NCBI RefSeq assembly: GCF_000687935.1
Contig: NZ_JHZZ01000001.1
Location: forward strand, 1,426,001-1,490,000
DNA from: Polaribacter sp. Hel_I_88
GTDB taxonomy: Bacteria > Bacteroidota > Bacteroidia > Flavobacteriales > Flavobacteriaceae
Reading direction: 5' to 3'
DNA: 64,000 bases
Positions within the stretch are counted from its first letter, which is position 1. Each line of letters starts with the position of its first letter. Shown piece by piece: positions 26,897 through 35,275 of this stretch. The notes beneath the pieces were generated by a model. That model did no database searches and was not told the origin of the DNA. It saw only the letters and a program-made list of their open reading frames with translations. Position numbers and translations under genes: made by a program.

Positions 26897-28006
26897 ATGA
26901 ACTACAGTTATTGGGAATTAAAAGAATGGTTTACCAACGTCGATTTTACGATTGTTGGTAGTGGAATTGTGGGACTAAATTGCGCTTTAGAATTAAAGAA
27001 AAAGCATCCAAAAGCAAAAATTTTAATTCTTGAAAAAGGAATGTTACCTCAAGGAGCAAGCACAAAAAATGCAGGTTTTGCTTGTTTTGGAAGTCTCTCT
27101 GAAATTATTGATGATTTAAACTCTCATACAGAACAAGAAGTTTTTAATTTGATTGCTAAACGTTGGAAAGGGTTACAATTATTACGCAAAAATTTAGGTG
27201 ATGCAACTATCGATTTTCAACAAAATAAAGGTTTTGAATTGTGTGAATCTGGAGATTTTTTTCAGGAATGTATTGCTGAGAAAGAGAACATAAATCAACT
27301 GTTAAAACCTATTTTTAAAAGTGATGTTTTTTCAACTTGCGATAATACTTTTGGTTTTCAAAAAGTGCATCAACAATATATTGTTAATAATTTTGAAGGG
27401 CAGATTGATACAGGTAAAATGGCATCAGAATTATTAAAAAAAGTGCAGAGTTTAGGAGTTAAAATGCTGAATAATATTACAGTTGAAAGTTATATTGAAA
27501 ACAATTCAAATATCAACATAAAAACCAACAAATTAGATTTTTATACAACTAAATTGCTAATTGCAACCAATGGTTTTGCGAGTCAATTATTACAAGAAAA
27601 TGTGAAACCTGCAAGAGCGCAAGTTCTCATTACAAAACCCATAAAAAACTTACTTATTAAAGGCACCTTTCATTTAGATAAAGGCTACTATTATTTTAGA
27701 AATATTGATGATAGAATCTTATTTGGTGGAGGAAGAAATCTCGATTTTAAAACAGAAGAAACTACCGAATTTGGTGAAACAGAAATCATTCAAAATCAAC
27801 TTGAAAAAATATTAAAAGAAACCATTTTGCCAAATACCAATTTTGAAATTGAACACAGGTGGAGTGGAATTATGGGCGTTGGCAATCAGAAAAAAGCCAT
27901 CGTAAAACAAGTGTCTAACAATATTTTTTGTGGAGTTCGATTAGGAGGAATGGGCGTTGCTATTGGTAGTTTGGTAGGCAAAGAATTGGCAGAATTAATA
28001 AAATAA
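26897..28006 (+). CDS. FAD-dependent oxidoreductase (DAO family)
   Basis: A 369-residue flavoprotein. The N-terminal Rossmann motif is TIVGSGIVGLNCALELKKKHP with the acidic end-of-strand EKG (ILEKG); GASTKNAGFACFG marks the D-amino-acid oxidase/DadA-like family; LFGGGRNLD and the C-terminal GVRLGGMGVAIGSLVGKELAE complete the FAD site. It probably oxidises a C-N bond of an amine or amino acid, with unknown substrate. It is tightly coupled (start at the previous stop, 1-base overlap with the next gene), so it is transcribed with the polyketide tailoring genes. Confidence 0.82.
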   Translation: MNYSYWELKEWFTNVDFTIVGSGIVGLNCALELKKKHPKAKILILEKGMLPQGASTKNAGFACFGSLSEIIDDLNSHTEQEVFNLIAKRWKGLQLLRKNLGDATIDFQQNKGFELCESGDFFQECIAEKENINQLLKPIFKSDVFSTCDNTFGFQKVHQQYIVNNFEGQIDTGKMASELLKKVQSLGVKMLNNITVESYIENNSNINIKTNKLDFYTTKLLIATNGFASQLLQENVKPARAQVLITKPIKNLLIKGTFHLDKGYYYFRNIDDRILFGGGRNLDFKTEETTEFGETEIIQNQLEKILKETILPNTNFEIEHRWSGIMGVGNQKKAIVKQVSNNIFCGVRLGGMGVAIGSLVGKELAELIK

Positions 28007-29142
28007 TGAGCACAGAAAATTCAAATTACGATGTAGTTATAATTGGTGGAGGTTTGGCAGGTTTGTGCAACGCAATTCACTTGTCAAAATTTGGCAAAAG
28101 TGTTTTGCTGATTGAAAAAAACAGCTATCCAAAACACAAAGTTTGTGGCGAATATATTTCGAATGAGGTATTACCTTATTTAGATTTTTTAGAGATAAAT
28201 CCTTTTGATTTTGGTGCCGTAAAAATTGATAATTTTCAATTATCAACCACAAATAACAAACTAATTAGTGCAAAATTACCTTTGGGAGGTTTTGGGATTT
28301 CTCGTTATCAATTAGATTTTATTCTATCAGAAAAAGCCAAAGAAAATGGCGTTAAAATTTTACAAGACACTGTTTTAAATATAAATTTTAAAGATGATAT
28401 TTTCAATATTGAAACTAAAGAAAATAGCATTTTCAAATCAAAAATAGCCATTGGTGCTTTTGGCAAACGTTCGTTATTAGATGTAAAAATGGAGCGTAGT
28501 TTCATCAAAAAGAAATCACCTTATTTGGGTGTTAAAATTCATGTAAAAGGAAATTTTCAAGAAGATTTAGTGGCGCTTCATAATTTTAAAGGCGGTTATT
28601 GTGGCGTTTCTAAAGTAGAAAATGATGCCATTAATTTGTGTTACATTACTAGTTTTTCATCATTTAAAAAATATAAAAATATTGATGATTTTCAGGAAAA
28701 TGTGGTTTTTAAAAACATATTTTTAAAAGAGATGTTTCAAAACTCAAAACCAATTTTTGAGCAACCTTTATCTATCAGTCAAATTTCTTTTGAAACCAAA
28801 AAACCTGTTGAAAAGAATATGATTATGTGTGGCGATTCTGCAGGAATGATTCATCCATTGTGTGGAAATGGGATGAGTATGGCAATTCAATCTGCACAAA
28901 TTGCATCTAAACTCATTCTAAATTATTTAAATAATGAAAACTCATCAAGAAAAGAACTTGAAAACACTTATATTTCAACATGGAATAAACAATTTAGTTG
29001 GCGTTTAAAATCGGGTCATTTTATCGCAAAATTGTTTAGAAATGATAAAATTGCAAACATTTTACTCCAAATTTTAAGTAAAATGCCATTTTTATTGGCA
29101 ATTATAATCAAACAAACGCATGGTAAATCAATAAAGCTATAA
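28006..29142 (+). CDS. FAD-dependent oxidoreductase (geranylgeranyl reductase/UbiH-like)
   Basis: A 378-residue flavoprotein. VVIIGGGLAGLCNAIHLSKFGKSVLLIEK is the FAD Rossmann fold (from residue 9). KHKVCGEYISNEVLP is the signature found in geranylgeranyl reductases and UbiH-like hydroxylases, and CGDSAGMIHPLCGNGMSMAI is the second FAD motif. The C-terminal hydrophobic helix suggests contact with membranes or lipid substrates. Overlapping ATGs at both ends couple it to the DAO oxidase and the methyltransferase. In this locus it may hydroxylate or oxidise the phenolic lipid made by the type III polyketide synthase; that is inference. Confidence 0.82.
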   Translation: MSTENSNYDVVIIGGGLAGLCNAIHLSKFGKSVLLIEKNSYPKHKVCGEYISNEVLPYLDFLEINPFDFGAVKIDNFQLSTTNNKLISAKLPLGGFGISRYQLDFILSEKAKENGVKILQDTVLNINFKDDIFNIETKENSIFKSKIAIGAFGKRSLLDVKMERSFIKKKSPYLGVKIHVKGNFQEDLVALHNFKGGYCGVSKVENDAINLCYITSFSSFKKYKNIDDFQENVVFKNIFLKEMFQNSKPIFEQPLSISQISFETKKPVEKNMIMCGDSAGMIHPLCGNGMSMAIQSAQIASKLILNYLNNENSSRKELENTYISTWNKQFSWRLKSGHFIAKLFRNDKIANILLQILSKMPFLLAIIIKQTHGKSIKL

Positions 29143-29852
29143 TGGACTTTTTTATCAGTACAAAACAAAGAACAGACAAGGAAGAATTGATGGACGATTT
29201 TTCTATTGGTGGCGATTTATTACGAGACACTTTAGATAAATTAGAGAACATAAACAGATGGTTAGGAGGAAATAAAGCAACTGTAAATGGTTTGCAATCA
29301 ATCTTAAAAAATCACCCAAAAGACCAAGAATTTACGATTGTAGATGTTGGCTGTGGACATGGAGATATTTTAAGAGATGTTGCTAAATTCGGACGAAAAA
29401 ACAACTATAAATTCAAATTAATTGGAATTGATGCAAATCCAACAGCTATAAAATACGCAAATGAATTATCTTTAGAGTATGAAGAGCTATCTTTTGAAAC
29501 CCAAGATATTTTTTCTGATGATTTTATTAAACGCGAGTTTGATGTTGTTTTAGCGACTTTATTTTTACATCATTTTAAACAACAGGAATTAGTGTCATTT
29601 TTAAAAAACACTTTAAAACAAACTAAAATAGGTATAGTTGTAAATGATTTACACAGACATAAAGTAGCTTATTATTTGTTTATGTTGTTATCTATTTTTA
29701 TCAGTAATAAAATGATTATTGAAGATGGATTAACATCAGTTTTAAGAGGTTTTAAAAGAAAAGATTTAAAAGAAATGTCAAATAAATTAAACGTGAAACC
29801 AAATATTTCTTGGAAATGGGCATTTCGATTTTTATGGATTCTGAAGAGTTAA
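29142..29852 (+). CDS. SAM-dependent methyltransferase
   Basis: A 236-residue class I methyltransferase. Motif I is FTIVDVGCGHGDILRDVAKFG (SAM-binding VDVGCGHGD), the acidic end of strand 2 is GIDANPTAI, and motif IV is FDVVLATLFLHHF. A hydrophobic helix near residue 180 (YYLFMLLSIFISNKMI) may anchor it at a membrane or in a lipid pocket. It overlaps the upstream flavoprotein by 1 base and precedes the type III polyketide synthase by 87 bases. Likely role: O- or C-methylation of the polyketide product. Confidence 0.85.
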   Translation: MDFFISTKQRTDKEELMDDFSIGGDLLRDTLDKLENINRWLGGNKATVNGLQSILKNHPKDQEFTIVDVGCGHGDILRDVAKFGRKNNYKFKLIGIDANPTAIKYANELSLEYEELSFETQDIFSDDFIKREFDVVLATLFLHHFKQQELVSFLKNTLKQTKIGIVVNDLHRHKVAYYLFMLLSIFISNKMIIEDGLTSVLRGFKRKDLKEMSNKLNVKPNISWKWAFRFLWILKS

Positions 29853-29855
29853 AAT

Positions 29856-29939
29856 TAAACGCAAAGACGCAAAGTTTTTCGCAAAGGGCGTAAAGTGTTT
29901 TGTTTAAAACCTCTGTGAATCTCAGTGTAAAAAAAATAT
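29856..29939 (+). repeat. Degenerate 'cgcaaag' spacer repeat before the type III PKS
   Basis: The spacer holds cgcaaagacgcaaag, then cgcaaagggcgtaaag, then ctctgtgaatctcagtgtaaa. The last block resembles gcgaatctccgtgtaaa near 1319. There is no terminator-like hairpin, so transcription from the upstream operon could continue into the PKS gene. Confidence 0.45.
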
Positions 29940-30992
29940 ATGAAAGTAAAAATAACATCGGTTGCAAAGCAACTTCCAAAATATTATCGAGAAACAAAAG
30001 ATATCATTCCATTTGTAGAATTGTGGATGCAGAATCAAGACACTCGTTTTAAAAGAAAAGTAACCAAACTTTTTGAAGGAGCAGGTGTTGACAAACGCTA
30101 CTCAATTATGGATCCTGAAGAAGTTTTTACAGCCACTTCTTTCGAGGATAAAAATAATATTTACGCAAGAGAAGTTGTAAAATTAGCAGAACAATCACTC
30201 AAAAAATCTTTAGACAAGGCCAATTTAAAAGCTAAAGAAATCGATTATATTATTACAGTAAGTTGCACAGGAATTATGATTCCTTCTATGGATGCTTATT
30301 TGATTAATTCACTGCAAATGAAACAAGATATTGTTCGTTTGCCAGTTACAGAAATGGGCTGTGCAGCAGGTGTTTCAGGTATTATTTATGCAAAGAATTT
30401 CTTAAAATCGAATCCAAATAAAAGAGCAGCAGTTGTTGCTGTAGAAGCACCAACAGCAACGTTTCAGTTAGAAGATTATTCTATGGCAAATATTGTAAGT
30501 GCAGCCATTTTTGGTGATGGAGCATCAGCAGTAATTTTGTCTTCTTATCAAGATGATAAAGGCCCAGAAATAATAGATGAAGCCATGTATCATTTTTACG
30601 ATGCAACACATATGATGGGTTTTAATTTGGTGAATTCTGGTTTGCAAATGATCTTGGATAAGGAAGTTCCACAGAAAATTTCCGATCATTTTCCTGCAAT
30701 TGTGCATCCTTTTTTAGAACGAAATAAGGTAACAATTGATGCTATAAATCACTTGATTTTTCATCCAGGAGGAAAGAAAATTGTTCAAACTGTAGAAGAT
30801 TTATTTGGAGTTTTAGGTAAAAATATAGACGATACAAAAGAAGTTTTACGTTTGTATGGAAACATGTCTAGTGCCACAGTTTTATATGTTTTAGAACGAT
30901 TTATGGATAGAAACCCAGCAAAAGGTGAAAGAGGATTAATGTTAAGTTTTGGTCCAGGTTTTTCTGCGCAGAGAATATTGTTGGAGTGGTAA
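29940..30992 (+). CDS. Type III polyketide synthase
   Basis: A 350-residue chalcone-synthase-fold homodimeric enzyme. The catalytic triad is complete: Cys141 (EMGCAAG), His275 (FHPGGKK) and Asn308 (YGNMSSAT). LMLSFGPGFSAQRILLEW is the C-terminal family signature. It extends an acyl-CoA or acyl-ACP starter with malonyl units and cyclises the chain, giving a resorcinol, pyrone or resorcylic acid. It is flanked upstream by methyltransferase and flavoprotein genes and downstream, beyond a RAYT transposase, by a ketosynthase, ACP, dehydratase and phosphopantetheinyl transferase. The starter is probably built by that module. The product is not known. Confidence 0.93.
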   Translation: MKVKITSVAKQLPKYYRETKDIIPFVELWMQNQDTRFKRKVTKLFEGAGVDKRYSIMDPEEVFTATSFEDKNNIYAREVVKLAEQSLKKSLDKANLKAKEIDYIITVSCTGIMIPSMDAYLINSLQMKQDIVRLPVTEMGCAAGVSGIIYAKNFLKSNPNKRAAVVAVEAPTATFQLEDYSMANIVSAAIFGDGASAVILSSYQDDKGPEIIDEAMYHFYDATHMMGFNLVNSGLQMILDKEVPQKISDHFPAIVHPFLERNKVTIDAINHLIFHPGGKKIVQTVEDLFGVLGKNIDDTKEVLRLYGNMSSATVLYVLERFMDRNPAKGERGLMLSFGPGFSAQRILLEW

Positions 30993-30999
30993 CGAATCT

Positions 31000-31032
31000 A
31001 GACCTCACAGGTTTTTGAAACCTGTGAGGTCT
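31000..31032. repeat. REP-like palindrome, left copy
   Basis: AGACCTCACAGGTTT (31000-31014), loop TTG, AAACCTGTGAGGTCT (31018-31032): a perfect 15-bp stem. It is identical in sequence and orientation to 31620-31652 on the other side of the RAYT transposase gene. No T-run follows, so it does not look like a standard terminator. Confidence 0.93.
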
Positions 31033-31052
31033 CTTTAAAAAAACGAATTAAT

Positions 31053-31613
31053 ATGAAATATGAAGTTTTAGTCGAAGATTCTTTTTATCACGTTTATAAT
31101 TGTGGAAACAATAAAGGAAACATTTTTATTGAGGAACAGAATTATTCTTATTTTTTAAAGTTAACTAAAAATCATCTTTCTAAAACTTCTAATATTTTAG
31201 CATACTGCTTATTAAAGAATCATTTCCATTTTTTAATTAAAACGAAAGAAAATATAACTTCAAAAGAAATTTCTCAATCATTTTCAAATCTATTTAATTC
31301 GTATTCAAAAAGTATCAATAAAAAATATGGGAGAAGTGGAAGTTTATTTAAAGACCGATTTTCGAGAATAAAATTAGATAATGAAGAGTATTTAAAAAAT
31401 TTGATTCTTTACATTCATTTAAATCCAATACATCATCAATTTGTAGACGATTTTAGAGTTTACAAACACTCATCTTACAATTCAATATTGTCTAATAAAC
31501 CAACAGATTTATTAAGAGAAGATGTTATAAATCTTTTTGAAGAAAGGAAAAACTTTATTGATGCACATCAAATTAAAGAGGTAAATATTTTAGAAATCTT
31601 AACGTTAGAATAA
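31053..31613 (+). mobile_element. REP-associated tyrosine transposase (RAYT, Y1/HUH family)
   Basis: A 186-residue transposase of the IS200-related RAYT group. The HUH metal motif is H57-F-H59 (LLKNHFHFLIK); the likely nucleophile is Tyr84 (FNSYSKSINKKYGRSGSLFKDRF). RAYTs cut and join single-stranded DNA at REP hairpins. Here the gene is bounded by two identical 33-bp palindromes 20 bases before its ATG and 6 bases after its stop, a complete 'REPtron'. It lies between the type III PKS and its FabZ-like partner, in the same direction, so it was probably inserted into an existing operon. The frame is intact. Confidence 0.9.
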
Positions 31614-31619
31614 AGCACA

Positions 31620-31652
31620 AGACCTCACAGGTTTTTGAAACCTGTGAGGTCT
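31620..31652. repeat. REP-like palindrome, right copy
   Basis: Second perfect copy of the 33-bp palindrome at 31000-31032, in the same orientation (loop TTG on the plus strand), 6 bases after the transposase stop and 14 bases before the FabZ-like ATG. Confidence 0.93.
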
Positions 31653-31666
31653 GAAAAAAGAAGCAA

Positions 31667-32107
31667 ATGAACCAAACAGAAATCATAAAAAACCTCCCTT
31701 ATCAAAAACCTTTTTTGTTTGTGGATGAACTTACAGAAATTTCAGAAAACGGAATTATTGGAAATTACGCATTCAAAGAAAACGAGTTTTTTTATGAAGG
31801 TCATTTTAAAGATAATCCAATTACGCCAGGCGTAATTTTAACAGAAACAATGGCACAAATAGGTTTGGTTTGTTTGGGAATATATCTTCTAAAAAATGCA
31901 ATTTTATCCGAAGAAAAAAAACCGAAAATAGCCTTAACTTCAAATCAAGTTGATTTCTTTTTACCAGTTTTACCAAACGAAAAAGTAACGGTTATCTCAG
32001 AAAAAGTATACTTTAGATTTAACAAACTGAAGTGTAAAGTAAAAATGATAAATCCTAAAAACGAAGTAGTTTGCAGAGGAATTATTTCTGGAATGATAAT
32101 AGTTTAA
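31667..32107 (+). CDS. FabZ-like 3-hydroxyacyl-ACP dehydratase
   Basis: A 146-residue hot-dog-fold enzyme. The FabZ active site is seen as H46 (YEGHFKDNPITPGV) and E60 (LTETMAQIG), with the canonical x-P-x-x-PGV spacing. It removes water from 3-hydroxyacyl-ACP in a chain-elongation cycle. Its place beside a ketosynthase, an ACP and a phosphopantetheinyl transferase points to a dedicated fatty-acid-like module rather than primary synthesis. No ketoreductase or enoyl reductase is in this locus, so FabG/FabI of primary metabolism would have to supply those steps. Confidence 0.87.
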   Translation: MNQTEIIKNLPYQKPFLFVDELTEISENGIIGNYAFKENEFFYEGHFKDNPITPGVILTETMAQIGLVCLGIYLLKNAILSEEKKPKIALTSNQVDFFLPVLPNEKVTVISEKVYFRFNKLKCKVKMINPKNEVVCRGIISGMIIV

Positions 32108-32139
32108 TCCGTGAAATCCGTGTCAAATAATCCACATAA

Positions 32140-33414
32140 ATGAAAAACAGAGTCGTAATTACAGGTTTAGGAGTTGTTGCCCCAAATGGAGTGGGTTTAT
32201 CCGCTTTTACAAAAGCTATTAAAGCTGGTAAATCTGGAATTACATTTCATCAAGCATTAAAAGATAAAGGTTTTTCTTGTTGTATTGGTGGAATTCCAGA
32301 AATATCCGAAGAAAAAAAGCTAGAATATTTATCGCCTTTGCAATTAAGAGGATTCAACTCAACATCAATTTTATATGGATGTATGGCTGGAATTGATGCA
32401 TGGAAATCAGCAGGTTTTTCTGTTGATGAAAATTCAGAATTAGATTACGATTCAGGTTTGATATTTGGCACAGGAACATCAGGAATTGAGAAATTTAGAG
32501 AATCGATTTACAAAATTGATGACCAAAAAGTAAGACGCTTAGGAAGTACTTCTGTAGTGCAAACCATGGCAAGTGGAATATCTGCATATTTAGGTGGAAT
32601 TCTTGGTTTTGGGAATCAAGTGACCACAAATTCATCTGCGTGTACAACAGGAACAGAAGCTTTATTGTTAGGATTTGAAAGAATCAAAAATGGAAAAGCA
32701 AAACGTATGTTAGTTGGCAGTTCAAGCGACTCAAGTTTATACACTTGGGGAGGTTTTGATGCAATGAGAGTAATGAGTTATAAGCATAATGAAAGCCCAG
32801 AAAAAGGCTCAAGACCCATGAGTGAAACTGCTGCAGGTTTTGTACCTGGAAGTGGAGCAGGAGCTTTGGTGTTGGAATCTTTAGATAGTGCTTTGGCAAG
32901 AAAGGCAACTATTTATGCAGAGGTTTTAGGAGGCAATATAAATTCTGGTGGCCAAAGAAATGGAGGCACTTTAACTGCGCCAAATGCAGAAGCTGTTCAA
33001 AAATGTATTACAGATGCTATTATTGACGCTAACATTTCTGCTGATGAAATTGATACGATTAATGGCCATTTAACAGCAACAACAAAAGATAGTTTAGAAA
33101 TAGAAAATTGGACAAAAGCCTTGGAAAGAAAAGGAGATGATTTTCCTTATATAAATTCGATAAAATCGCAAATTGGACATTGTTTGGCAGCAGCTGGCGC
33201 CATTGAATCTGTTGCTTCTGTTTTGCAGATTAAGGAACAATTTGTGTTTCCGAATATCAATTGTGAAGATGTACATCCAGAAATTTCTGAATTAATTGCT
33301 AACGATAAAATTCCGACTAAACTGATCGAGAAAAACATTAATATTGTAGCAAAAGCAAGTTTTGGTTTTGGTGATGTAAATGCTTGTGTTATCTTTAAGA
33401 AGTTTGAAGCTTGA
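32140..33414 (+). CDS. Beta-ketoacyl-ACP synthase (KAS I/II type)
   Basis: A 424-residue thiolase-fold ketosynthase. The Cys-His-His triad is present: Cys168 (NSSACTTGTEAL), His310 (NGHLTATTKDSLE) and His347 (IGHCLAAAGAIE). The His310 motif is GHLT rather than the common NAHGTST, suggesting a specialised subfamily. It performs decarboxylative Claisen condensation of malonyl-ACP with an acyl primer. There is no chain-length-factor partner next to it. It precedes the ACP gene by 53 bases. Confidence 0.9.
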   Translation: MKNRVVITGLGVVAPNGVGLSAFTKAIKAGKSGITFHQALKDKGFSCCIGGIPEISEEKKLEYLSPLQLRGFNSTSILYGCMAGIDAWKSAGFSVDENSELDYDSGLIFGTGTSGIEKFRESIYKIDDQKVRRLGSTSVVQTMASGISAYLGGILGFGNQVTTNSSACTTGTEALLLGFERIKNGKAKRMLVGSSSDSSLYTWGGFDAMRVMSYKHNESPEKGSRPMSETAAGFVPGSGAGALVLESLDSALARKATIYAEVLGGNINSGGQRNGGTLTAPNAEAVQKCITDAIIDANISADEIDTINGHLTATTKDSLEIENWTKALERKGDDFPYINSIKSQIGHCLAAAGAIESVASVLQIKEQFVFPNINCEDVHPEISELIANDKIPTKLIEKNINIVAKASFGFGDVNACVIFKKFEA

Positions 33415-33467
33415 TGTTTGAAGTAGGAAGAAAAAACGGATATTTGATTAGTATTTAATATAAAATT

Positions 33468-33719
33468 ATGACAAAAGAAGAAATCATAAAGAAATTAACG
33501 ACGATTGTAAAACCTTATATTCATAATGAAGAAGGTTTTAAAAACATGAATGAAGATACCGATTTTATAAAGGATCTAGATATTAATTCTGCAAATTTGG
33601 TGGATATTATTTTAGATGTAGAAGATGAATTTGATATTCATATTGACAACGATTCAATGGAAAAAATGCTTTCTGTAAAAGAAACTGTCATTATTATTCA
33701 AACTAAAATGAACGCTTAA
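33468..33719 (+). CDS. Acyl carrier protein
   Basis: An 83-residue acidic four-helix ACP. The phosphopantetheine attachment residue is Ser41 in DLDINSANLVDIILDVEDEF; INSANLVD replaces the usual DSLD of primary AcpP, so this is a dedicated carrier. It ends directly before the ATG of a phosphopantetheinyl transferase, which presumably activates it. It would carry the growing acyl chain between ketosynthase and dehydratase and perhaps pass it to the type III polyketide synthase. Confidence 0.9.
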   Translation: MTKEEIIKKLTTIVKPYIHNEEGFKNMNEDTDFIKDLDINSANLVDIILDVEDEFDIHIDNDSMEKMLSVKETVIIIQTKMNA

Positions 33720-34277
33720 ATGATTGGCAATGATGTTGTTGATTTAAAACTAACAAAAACCGAAAGTAATTGGCAACGTAAAGGATTTTTAGAGAAACAA
33801 TTTACCGATTCTGAAATCAGCGAAATCTTAAATTCAACAAATCCATTTGTAAAAGTTTGGCTGTTTTGGAGCATGAAAGAAGCTGCTTATAAATGCTATG
33901 TTCAAGAACATCAAAAACGATTTTTTGCACCTAAAAAATTTTCTTGTAAAATAATTTCAGATAAGGAAGGAGTTGTGCAAATTGAATCTAAGAAATACTT
34001 TATAAATTATTTAATGTCAAATAATTATATAGTTTCAGTAGCTAGAAAAACTAAAAAAATAAAAATGGTTTCAGAGTTGATTTTTATTGATAAAAAAGAA
34101 AGTTCAACCAAAATTATTGATGATAAATTATTGTCCTTTTTTACTAATGAAACTCAACTTTTAAAGAACGATTTAGGAATTCCTTCTTTGTATCAAAATA
34201 ACAAAAAATTACCGATTTCAGTTTCAAAAACACATCATGGAGATTATGGTGCATTTGCTTTTACATTTCAAAAATAA
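33720..34277 (+). CDS. 4'-phosphopantetheinyl transferase
   Basis: A 185-residue transferase that moves phosphopantetheine from CoA onto the serine of a carrier protein. Magnesium-binding IGNDVVDL opens the protein and VWLFWSMKEAAYKCY is the family WxxKEA/SxxK signature. The ATG begins at the base after the ACP stop codon. The pair is an obvious carrier/activator unit. Confidence 0.88.
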   Translation: MIGNDVVDLKLTKTESNWQRKGFLEKQFTDSEISEILNSTNPFVKVWLFWSMKEAAYKCYVQEHQKRFFAPKKFSCKIISDKEGVVQIESKKYFINYLMSNNYIVSVARKTKKIKMVSELIFIDKKESSTKIIDDKLLSFFTNETQLLKNDLGIPSLYQNNKKLPISVSKTHHGDYGAFAFTFQK

Positions 34278-34299
34278 TCTATATAATATTTTTTTTTCG

Positions 34300-34836
34300 A
34301 TGAAAAAACTGCTAGTATTTATCTTTCTTTTTTGTGCTTTTTCGAGCTTTTCTCAAGAACTTTTGCAAGATGATAAAAATTCTTCTATTACGTTTACCAT
34401 TAAGAACTTTGGTTTTGATGTAGAGGGTTCTTTTAGCAATTTTAAAATAGTAAGTAATTTTAATGCTGATAATTTAAAAGAGAGTTTTTTAAAGGCAAAT
34501 ATTCCAGTAAATACAATATTTACAGACTCTAAAGCTAGAGATGAACATTTACTAAAATCTGATTATTTTGATGTTGAAAACTATCCAGAAATAGTATTTG
34601 AATCTTCAGCAATAGAAAAAAACACAGCTAATAAATTTATTATAAAAGGAATTTTAACCATAAAAGGAATTAAAAAAAACATAGAGACTTTATTAGAAGT
34701 TGATGACACAGAAAATAACATTATAATTTCCTCAAATTTTATGATTAATAGAAAAAATTTTAATGTTGGAGGCAGTAGTTTTATACTTTCTAAAAATGTA
34801 GATATTAAAATGATATATGTTGCAACTAAAAATTAA
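34300..34836 (+). CDS. YceI-family secreted lipid-binding protein
   Basis: A periplasmic lipocalin-like protein of 178 residues from the ATG at 34300, the first residue of a clear signal peptide (MKKLLVFIFLFCAFSSFSQ); an earlier ATG inside the upstream gene would put 21 odd residues before it. Family motifs: ITFTIKNFGFDVEGSFSNF, KARDEHLLKSDYFDVENYPEIVFES. YceI proteins bind polyprenoid or long-chain isoprenoid-quinone-like ligands in a hydrophobic pocket. It lies 22 bases after the phosphopantetheinyl transferase, so it is a candidate carrier for the hydrophobic product of this locus. Confidence 0.87.
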   Translation: MKKLLVFIFLFCAFSSFSQELLQDDKNSSITFTIKNFGFDVEGSFSNFKIVSNFNADNLKESFLKANIPVNTIFTDSKARDEHLLKSDYFDVENYPEIVFESSAIEKNTANKFIIKGILTIKGIKKNIETLLEVDDTENNIIISSNFMINRKNFNVGGSSFILSKNVDIKMIYVATKN

Positions 34837-35275
34837 ACAGCAACTTTTTGAGTTATGTAAAAAGTTTGTTGATAAACGTTTGCAAACGGTTGAAGAAATT
34901 ATAACATCGAACCAAAAAGCTTTGCAATCTGAAACGAAGAGTTCTGCTGGAGACAAGCATGAAACTGCCAGAGCCATGTTGCAGCTAGAGATGGAAAAAG
35001 CGAGTCAGCAATTGGAAGGAATTTCTGTAATGAATCAAATTTTATCAAAAATTGATATTTCTAAAATGTCTAAAATTGCACATTTAGGAAGCATTATTAT
35101 TACAGAAAAAGCCAACTACTTTTTAAGTATTTCAGCTGGCAAGCTAACAGCTTGTGGTAATAACTATTTTGCGATTTCTGTATCATCACCCATTGGAAAA
35201 CTGTTATTGAGAAAAAAAGAAAACGAGGAAATTGTTTTTAATGGGAATTTGATAAAGATTAAAGAAGTTTTTTAA
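34817..35275 (+). CDS. GreA/GreB C-terminal-like protein
   Basis: A 152-residue protein: an N-terminal helical region (DKRLQTVEEIITSNQKALQSE, then LQLEMEKASQQLEGISVMNQI) followed by a GreA/GreB-like C-terminal fold (AISVSSPIGKLLLRKKENEEIVFNG). True GreA is about 158 residues, but the acidic coiled-coil tip motif is not clearly conserved, so it may not cleave backtracked RNA. It overlaps the YceI gene by 20 bases. Such proteins are sometimes mislabelled '3-oxoacyl-ACP synthase' in this family; I see no basis for that. Its stop meets a convergent ABC gene. Confidence 0.68.
   Translation: MLQLKIKQQLFELCKKFVDKRLQTVEEIITSNQKALQSETKSSAGDKHETARAMLQLEMEKASQQLEGISVMNQILSKIDISKMSKIAHLGSIIITEKANYFLSISAGKLTACGNNYFAISVSSPIGKLLLRKKENEEIVFNGNLIKIKEVF

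Follow-up and report, generated by a model that had tools for sequence, protein, structure and literature searches.

The window, by which we mean the whole 64,000-nucleotide stretch of Polaribacter sp. Hel_I_88 DNA analysed here (contig NZ_JHZZ01000001.1, positions 1,426,001 to 1,490,000), contains a candidate lipid biosynthesis locus organized around a type III polyketide synthase (PKS). The host genome is a single contig of 3,996,527 bases and is 99.98% complete. An initial annotation, made from the sequence alone, had placed eight genes here on the plus strand, and Pfam and NCBIfam scans confirmed all eight in their positions. The block opens with a FAD-dependent oxidoreductase of the GGR/halogenase/PHBH superfamily (28006-29142; TIGR02032, 115 bits, below the cut-off of 158.8), a probable ring hydroxylase or oxidase that we call FMO. 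It is followed by a class I S-adenosylmethionine methyltransferase (MT; 29142-29852; PF13847, 53.2 bits) and by the PKS itself (29940-30992), whose PF00195 and PF02797 scores of 78.2 and 72.7 bits both exceed the cut-off of 27. Further along lie a FabZ-like 3-hydroxyacyl-acyl carrier protein (ACP) dehydratase (31667-32107; PF07977, 54.8 bits), a FabF-like elongating ketosynthase (KAS; 32140-33414; TIGR03150, 268 bits, below the cut-off of 493.75) and a dedicated ACP (33468-33719; NF002150, 42.6 bits, below the cut-off of 66). Beyond these six core genes come a 4'-phosphopantetheinyl transferase (PPTase; 33720-34277; PF01648, 51.7 bits) and a YceI-family secreted lipid-binding protein (34300-34836). 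The catalytic residues claimed for the PKS (C141/H275/N308), the KAS (C168/H310/H347) and the ACP (S41, in an "INSAN" context) are present as described and are invariant in 169 of 169 aligned rows, as are H46 and E60 of FabZ.

The layout is looser than it first appeared. The zero-gap or overlapping junctions originally reported hold for FMO/MT (1-bp overlap) and ACP/PPTase (0 gap), and the other junctions inside the block are 22-87 bp. Nor are the eight genes contiguous, as a transposase gene and two palindromes part the PKS from FabZ. A sigma-70 promoter scan gave 48 sites against 45.7 expected. In the host genome there are one PF00195 match, two PF01648 matches, one of them the locus PPTase, and five PF00109 matches; the strongest of these five lies outside the window and is probably the housekeeping FabF, to which the locus KAS is 31% identical.

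Conservation of the six-gene core

The block of KAS and ACP genes had been expected to accompany the type III PKS in relatives, and it does. We searched 299 Flavobacteriaceae genomes and found the PKS (E<=1e-30) in 104, one of which (G072) is only 31% identical, and the KAS (E<=1e-70) in 101, about a third of the sampled family. All 101 KAS genomes carry the PKS, a co-occurrence that rules out chance proximity of the two genes. In 97 of them the two matches share strand and contig, with the KAS starting 461-4322 bp downstream of the PKS; the two are on different contigs in G066 and G276 and stand apart in G190 and G144. PKS genomes without a KAS match are G072, G138 and G293.

We then compared gene order across 101 fetched and annotated family loci, G293 not among them. 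The order FMO-MT-PKS-FabZ-KAS-ACP is kept on one strand in 95, a gene that falls into two reading frames (as in G150 and G205) being counted by its best fragment. FMO and MT are present, on the same strand, in all 101 loci, and FabZ, KAS and ACP in 96 each. The incomplete loci are L080 and L151 (from G066 and G276), L105 and L118 (G144 and G190), L104 (G138) and L097, where FabZ has no match. A second set, the best 80 of 508 confirmed related loci (hereafter close loci), has the complete core in 70, some of its loci being truncated by contig ends; in L198 the MT was not detected and the remaining locus genes are present. Judged by PKS sequence, the closest named relatives among these best 80 belong to Polaribacter, a metagenome-assembled genome at 97% and P. 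glomeratus at 95%. Not every genome of the genus has the locus: G131, a 2.6-Mb genome with the window's genus code, has neither a PKS nor a KAS match.

A reductase absent from the window

Most relatives have one more gene in this block. In 92 of the 101 family loci, a FabL-like short-chain dehydrogenase (SDR) gene follows the PKS on the same strand, and in most relatives it stands between PKS and FabZ. FabL is its best NCBIfam model at 158 bits, which against a cut-off of 328 amounts to a family resemblance, and PF13561 scores above cut-off at 153 bits. The protein carries a conserved Y-x6-K motif that we take to be enoyl-reductase-like, and we refer to it as the reductase. In the window, its position is occupied by the transposase gene. 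A six-frame search of the window with the family hidden Markov model (HMM) gave no degraded remnant above 4.3 bits, while L093 retains one of 36 bits. The host genome holds no recognizable orthologue, its best SDR reaching 65 bits at 26% identity and the top identity among the matches listed being 33%. Relocation elsewhere is ruled out in 10 reductase-less genomes, where the best matches show 28-34% identity and at most 85 bits; controls in four genomes gave 298-482 bits. Across these ten and the host genome, the SDRs among the matches listed are 23-34% identical.

To place these absences, we used a FastTree phylogeny of PKS and KAS with 169 rows, made up of the window and 168 of 200 annotated loci. 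Left out were loci without all of PKS, KAS, FMO, FabZ and ACP or under the score limits, and one duplicate; L080 was also left out of the gene clustering. The window's row nests in a 40-row, mostly Polaribacter-labelled clade on a starred branch. With the reductase scored as present only if downstream of the PKS on the PKS strand, it is absent from its place in 45 of the 169 rows, corresponding to 15 parsimony changes, at least 12 of them forced by starred branches, counts that cannot separate gain from loss. In 10 of 34 reductase-less close loci, FabZ starts merely 4-11 bp past the PKS stop. In G428, an SDR resembling the reductase (200 bits against the family HMM) lies upstream of the locus on the opposite strand (L161:11697-12434).

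The PKS and KAS are under purifying selection, strong in the case of the PKS, with or without the reductase. PKS dN/dS was 0.01-0.10 in 12 pairs of loci (0.04-0.10 in seven reductase-less pairs and 0.01-0.07 in five reductase-bearing pairs), and KAS values were 0.06-0.12 and 0.06-0.11, respectively. The low values for these two genes rule out a decayed cluster. The smaller genes are looser, with dN/dS up to 0.36 for FabZ, 0.49 for the ACP and 0.41 for the PPTase.

The acyl-chain module had been presented as the locus's own; in the window, it is incomplete, with no ketoreductase recognized and the relatives' reductase absent. Lacking both, the window module has no means of its own to make a saturated chain. 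The tail of the product would be unsaturated unless a housekeeping reductase steps in.

Separable modules and the predicted pathway

The FabZ-KAS-ACP cassette extends beyond the family and also occurs in other company. In a phylum-wide sample of 296 genomes, the KAS (E<=1e-80) was found in 29, and 25 of these have a close PKS (>=67% identity) on the same contig. Of these, 22, counting the window itself, belong to the window's family and three (G375, G428 and G536) to other families. The latter three carry the six-gene core and the PPTase, with the reductase in place only in G536. The other four Bacteroidota (G394, G342, G372 and G419) have the cassette without a close PKS, a distant one (29-36% identity) lying on another contig, and their cassette KAS is 45.5-54.7% identical to that of the locus. 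In G394 (L274:6077-13839), reductase-FabZ-KAS-ACP-PPTase is divergent from darB, darG and darH, with scores above cut-off for DarB (632 bits; cut-off 550), DarG (198; 170) and DarH (454; 300). In G342, G372 and G419, FabZ-KAS-ACP adjoins a GNAT-like gene of ~377-416 codons (25 bits to PF00583 in G372 and G342, cut-off 20.7), together with the reductase in G372. A cassette beside Dar or GNAT-like genes is as expected of a portable acyl-tail donor. Two of these loci are of interest in themselves. The G394 cassette may be a private source of acyl chains for making dialkylresorcinols. The G372 locus (L276:2483-12875), which combines the cassette with GNAT-like and glycosyltransferase-like genes and has a serine-palmitoyltransferase/BioF-like enzyme nearby, all below NCBIfam cut-offs, is a possible aminolipid locus.

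The PKS-MT-oxidoreductase triad has precedents. In the srs operon of Streptomyces griseus, which we take to encode a type III PKS, a methyltransferase and an oxidoreductase, the same three enzyme types are adjacent, as they are in pkq (Mycobacterium smegmatis), hid (cyanobacteria) and planctomycete triads. The resemblance first pointed out, to operons making alkylresorcinols or quinones, is upheld (PMC10896814, PMC9927152; these and all papers cited below are used in excerpt). Characterized operons of this kind yield methylated alkylresorcinols (PMC10896814), and the polyketide quinones that some produce act as alternative electron carriers (PMC9927152). The excerpts describe no FabZ/KAS/ACP cassette for the srs, pkq and hid triads (PMC10896814, PMC9927152), whereas here it belongs to the core conserved in 95 of 101 loci.

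For acyl supply, the closest parallels are elsewhere. The ars genes of Azotobacter vinelandii place a dedicated fatty acid synthase (FAS) beside type III PKSs, much as FabZ, KAS and ACP are placed here, and the ArsA ACP passes fatty acyl groups directly to ArsB and ArsC (PMC6274091). However, ars uses a type I FAS, going by the title of a cited 2008 paper, while the window block has single-domain FAS-II-like proteins together with a methyltransferase and an oxygenase. In the cyl system (CylB ACP, CylD/H type I PKS, CylI type III PKS), an ACP-borne chain likewise reaches a type III PKS, with CylI producing resorcinols from a chain whose synthesis starts on a free-standing ACP (PMC8086630). That chain is built by type I PKSs, with halogenation and dimerization, and no such genes were recognized in the window block. 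The flexirubin/dialkylresorcinol dar pathway is also a Bacteroidota route to resorcinol lipids, and it is the one whose darB, darG and darH accompany a related cassette in G394, but in the window the ring would come from the type III PKS: no DarB was found in the block, the PKS scoring 23.1 bits against a cut-off of 550 and the other nine scanned proteins having no match listed. Aryl polyene clusters differ in having a ketosynthase/chain-length-factor pair, the window block having one KAS with its catalytic Cys kept.

Structural comparison points to lipid-tail enzymes. The closest solved chains to the PKS by sequence are Pks11 of M. tuberculosis, whose structure entries are titled methyl-branched alkylpyrone synthesis, and 1u0m. 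Models were built from alignments of 20 (PKS) and 13 (FMO) sequences from the 80 close loci, are of moderate confidence and were used for fold comparison alone. The PKS model (predicted local distance difference test, pLDDT, 75) aligned to Pks11 with Z 36.1 and a root mean square deviation (rmsd) of 3.1 over 330 residues, and to CylI, also among the nearest folds, with Z 34.5 and rmsd 3.3 over 331; ArsC was not in the best 50 fold entries, which excludes nothing. Three residues before the catalytic His, the PKS has Leu in 167 of 169 rows, in what may be the column of Trp281 of ArsB-type alkylresorcinol synthases, ArsB and ArsC being outside the alignment. Trp is found there in three of 12 distant PKS loci (L174-L176) and also in Pks11 and Pks18. 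Solved relatives of the FMO are distant by sequence (best E 6.7e-12), and its AlphaFold model (pLDDT 73) most resembles flavin halogenases and phenol hydroxylases (Z 29-33, rmsd 3.0-3.6 A); a geranylgeranyl-reductase-like protein scored Z 29.0. At the usual position of the DG motif, as we take it to be, the FMO reads G-A/S-F/Y-G-K-R. The modelled fold fits ring oxygenation, without proving it.

We consider it probable, at roughly 0.62, that the locus is an operon for phenolic-lipid synthesis, probably leading to a quinone, in which a FAS-II-like cassette loads an acyl chain onto the type III PKS. FabZ, KAS and the private ACP, activated by the PPTase where one is present, would build the chain, with the ketoreductase step supplied by the cell's general FabG. 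In most relatives the enoyl reductase would come from the cassette; in the window it would be either missing or supplied by housekeeping. The PKS would then take the acyl-ACP starter, add malonyl units and close a resorcinol or pyrone ring, which the MT and the FAD oxygenase would methylate and hydroxylate or oxidize, giving a methylated phenolic lipid or quinone. The YceI protein may bind or carry this lipid in the periplasm. The sequence data themselves establish the gene content, the catalytic residues, the linkage, the purifying selection and the missing reductase; transfer of the chain between ACP and PKS, recourse to housekeeping reductases, the type of ring, the quinone and a role in the membrane are inferred from them.

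Several observations weigh against this proposal. The core has no recognized ketoreductase and the window locus no enoyl reductase, and FMO, KAS and ACP all score under their NCBIfam family cut-offs. In G190 and G144 the PKS lies with the reductase, away from FabZ-KAS-ACP, while in G138 the PKS and reductase are followed by other genes, with no KAS match. In L234 (Subsaximicrobium), FabZ, KAS and ACP were absent from the 8 kb downstream, the only stretch searched. Core genes are split in two frames in G150 (PKS and FMO), G118 (FMO), G205 (KAS), L203 (MT) and L210 (FMO). Finally, FabZ, KAS and ACP are absent from the fetched stretch in all 12 loci with a distantly related PKS. Homologues of MT and FMO are found in three of these (L170, L174 and L176), which shows that a triad can occur without the cassette. 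The cassette is likewise found without a close PKS, and the two are separable modules, joined in this lineage.

The acyl chain could be used in another way. The cassette could make an acyl group that is joined by an ester or ether bond to a finished ring, the PKS using acyl-CoA or malonyl-CoA alone in the manner of DpgA. DpgA is indeed the best NCBIfam model for the PKS, though at 171.7 bits it is far under the cut-off of 425; in flexirubin, a polyene acid produced on its own is attached to a resorcinol (PMC3992019), and the split between PKS and cassette in G190 and G144 fits as well. However, the six core genes include no acyltransferase or ligase, and the nearest folds and solved sequences of the PKS, CylI and Pks11, are lipid-tail enzymes, so we regard separate joining as quite unlikely. 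A tentative alternative, which we hold to be on the unlikely side, concerns the tail: reductase-less loci may make an alkenyl or polyenyl phenol from an unsaturated chain and reductase-bearing relatives the saturated form. The absence of the reductase from 45 of 169 rows, with 15 parsimony changes of which at least 12 are forced, the lack of an orthologue elsewhere in 10 reductase-less genomes and the continued constraint on the PKS in reductase-less pairs all speak for it. Against it, the step could be taken over by a housekeeping enoyl reductase, in which case easy repeated loss would be explained too, and no chain-length factor or thioesterase was recognized among the block proteins. That the block is simply a lipid-metabolism island whose genes share no product we find highly improbable: the PPTase, DAO-type oxidoreductase and YceI genes do vary between loci, but the core is nearly all-or-nothing in both co-occurrence and order.

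The phenolic-lipid operon reading, if correct, gives content to a well-populated class. Orphan type III PKS clusters are already widely catalogued in this family, making up 10.74% of Flavobacteriaceae clusters in a 2,680-genome survey (PMC10734526) and 9% of clusters in another (PMC7440613). The excerpts of these surveys describe neither the cassette nor a product; among the papers listed from the open-licence literature searched, none was found to describe the cassette, and none was recognized as assigning a product to a comparable flavobacterial type III PKS. What appears to be new is the feeder: in this FAS-fed phenolic-lipid system, the type III PKS would be supplied by dissociated FAS-II-like proteins that form a portable cassette. 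Assigning the PKS a private cassette leads to the prediction of a specific class of lipid in a major group of marine bacteria. The small stand-alone proteins make ACP-to-type-III-PKS transfer testable, and the natural reductase-plus and reductase-minus pairs suit tests of tail saturation. Among Polaribacter, the reductase is present in P. glomeratus (L195) and absent from the locus in P. irgensii and P. porphyrae (L204 and L222). An alternative-electron-carrier role in Flavobacteriaceae may be suggested by analogy with the characterized quinones. It is tempting to go further and regard reductase-FabZ-KAS-ACP-PPTase as a private acyl donor of general use in Bacteroidota that can be coupled to a type III PKS, DarB or a GNAT-like acyltransferase. 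In the PKS version, repeated reductase loss would toggle tail saturation in a quinone-like membrane lipid found across the family, and this lipid could serve as an alternative electron carrier. We offer this as speculation and doubt that all of it will hold.

Accessory genes and inserted elements

The insertion between PKS and FabZ consists of a Y1_Tnp transposase-like gene of 186 amino acids on the plus strand (31053-31613; PF01797, 29.5 bits, above the cut-off of 23), of the type associated with repetitive extragenic palindromes (REP), flanked by two identical 33-bp REP-like palindromes (31000-31032 and 31620-31652). By its anatomy, we take the element at 31000-31652 to be of REP/RAYT type. 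The palindrome occurs in ~20 places genome-wide at <=2 mismatches, and a reversed control gave no match. The transposase gene is outside the pathway. Because a homologous transposase gene sits in the PKS-FabZ gap of several other Polaribacter loci, this gap looks like a repeat insertion spot. Small proteins that by eye are GIY-YIG-like are inserted between locus genes in L234 (9567-9878, with YYVYIIECSDKSYYTGITN) and L108 (5782-6093, with YYTYILLCSDGTYYTGMTN).

Immediately before the block as first drawn is a plus-strand DAO-type FAD oxidoreductase (DAO; 26897-28006; PF01266, 125.8 bits), which overlaps the FMO by 1 bp. It is an accessory gene retained chiefly in close relatives, with a homologue in 61 of the 80 close loci and on the same strand in 17 of the 101 family loci. 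The PPTase and YceI, initially treated as fixed parts of the set, are optional as well, being present in 30 and 32 of the 101 loci. A PPTase query matched at least 33 of the 299 genomes, always adjoining the KAS by coordinates, at 27-57% identity excluding the window copy. Three conserved genes on the same strand, coding for ~406, 165 and 238 amino acids, precede the FMO in 65-70 of the fetched family loci (e.g., L059:3-2558); by eye, the products are dehydrogenase E1-like, a lipoprotein and OmpA-like.

The YceI protein scores above cut-off (PF04264, 96.5 bits; G000:C1:1460369-1460812), and its N-terminus, MKKLLVFIFLFCAFSSFSQE, is by eye a signal peptide. The longest frame opens at 34237, overlapping the PPTase, and the signal-peptide-like start is at 34300. 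Its presence in fewer than a third of family loci and its variable placement led us to reject YceI as a core gene: 23 of the 32 copies are downstream on the opposite strand and nine upstream on the strand of the locus. The 80 close loci have 20 upstream and six downstream copies, every one on the locus strand. From 223 copies in 201 Mb, 0.014 YceI genes per locus would be expected, and the frequency near the locus is ~23-fold higher, a figure in which related loci are non-independent and the two counts use different YceI models. The initial annotation had named YceI as the carrier of the product, a claim that does not stand as worded, given three different placements and this near-locus enrichment as its basis. 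Overlapping the YceI gene in the window is a small protein with TSETKSSAGDKHETARAMLQLE (34817-35275), and what by eye is the same family lies upstream of the locus in 15 relatives.

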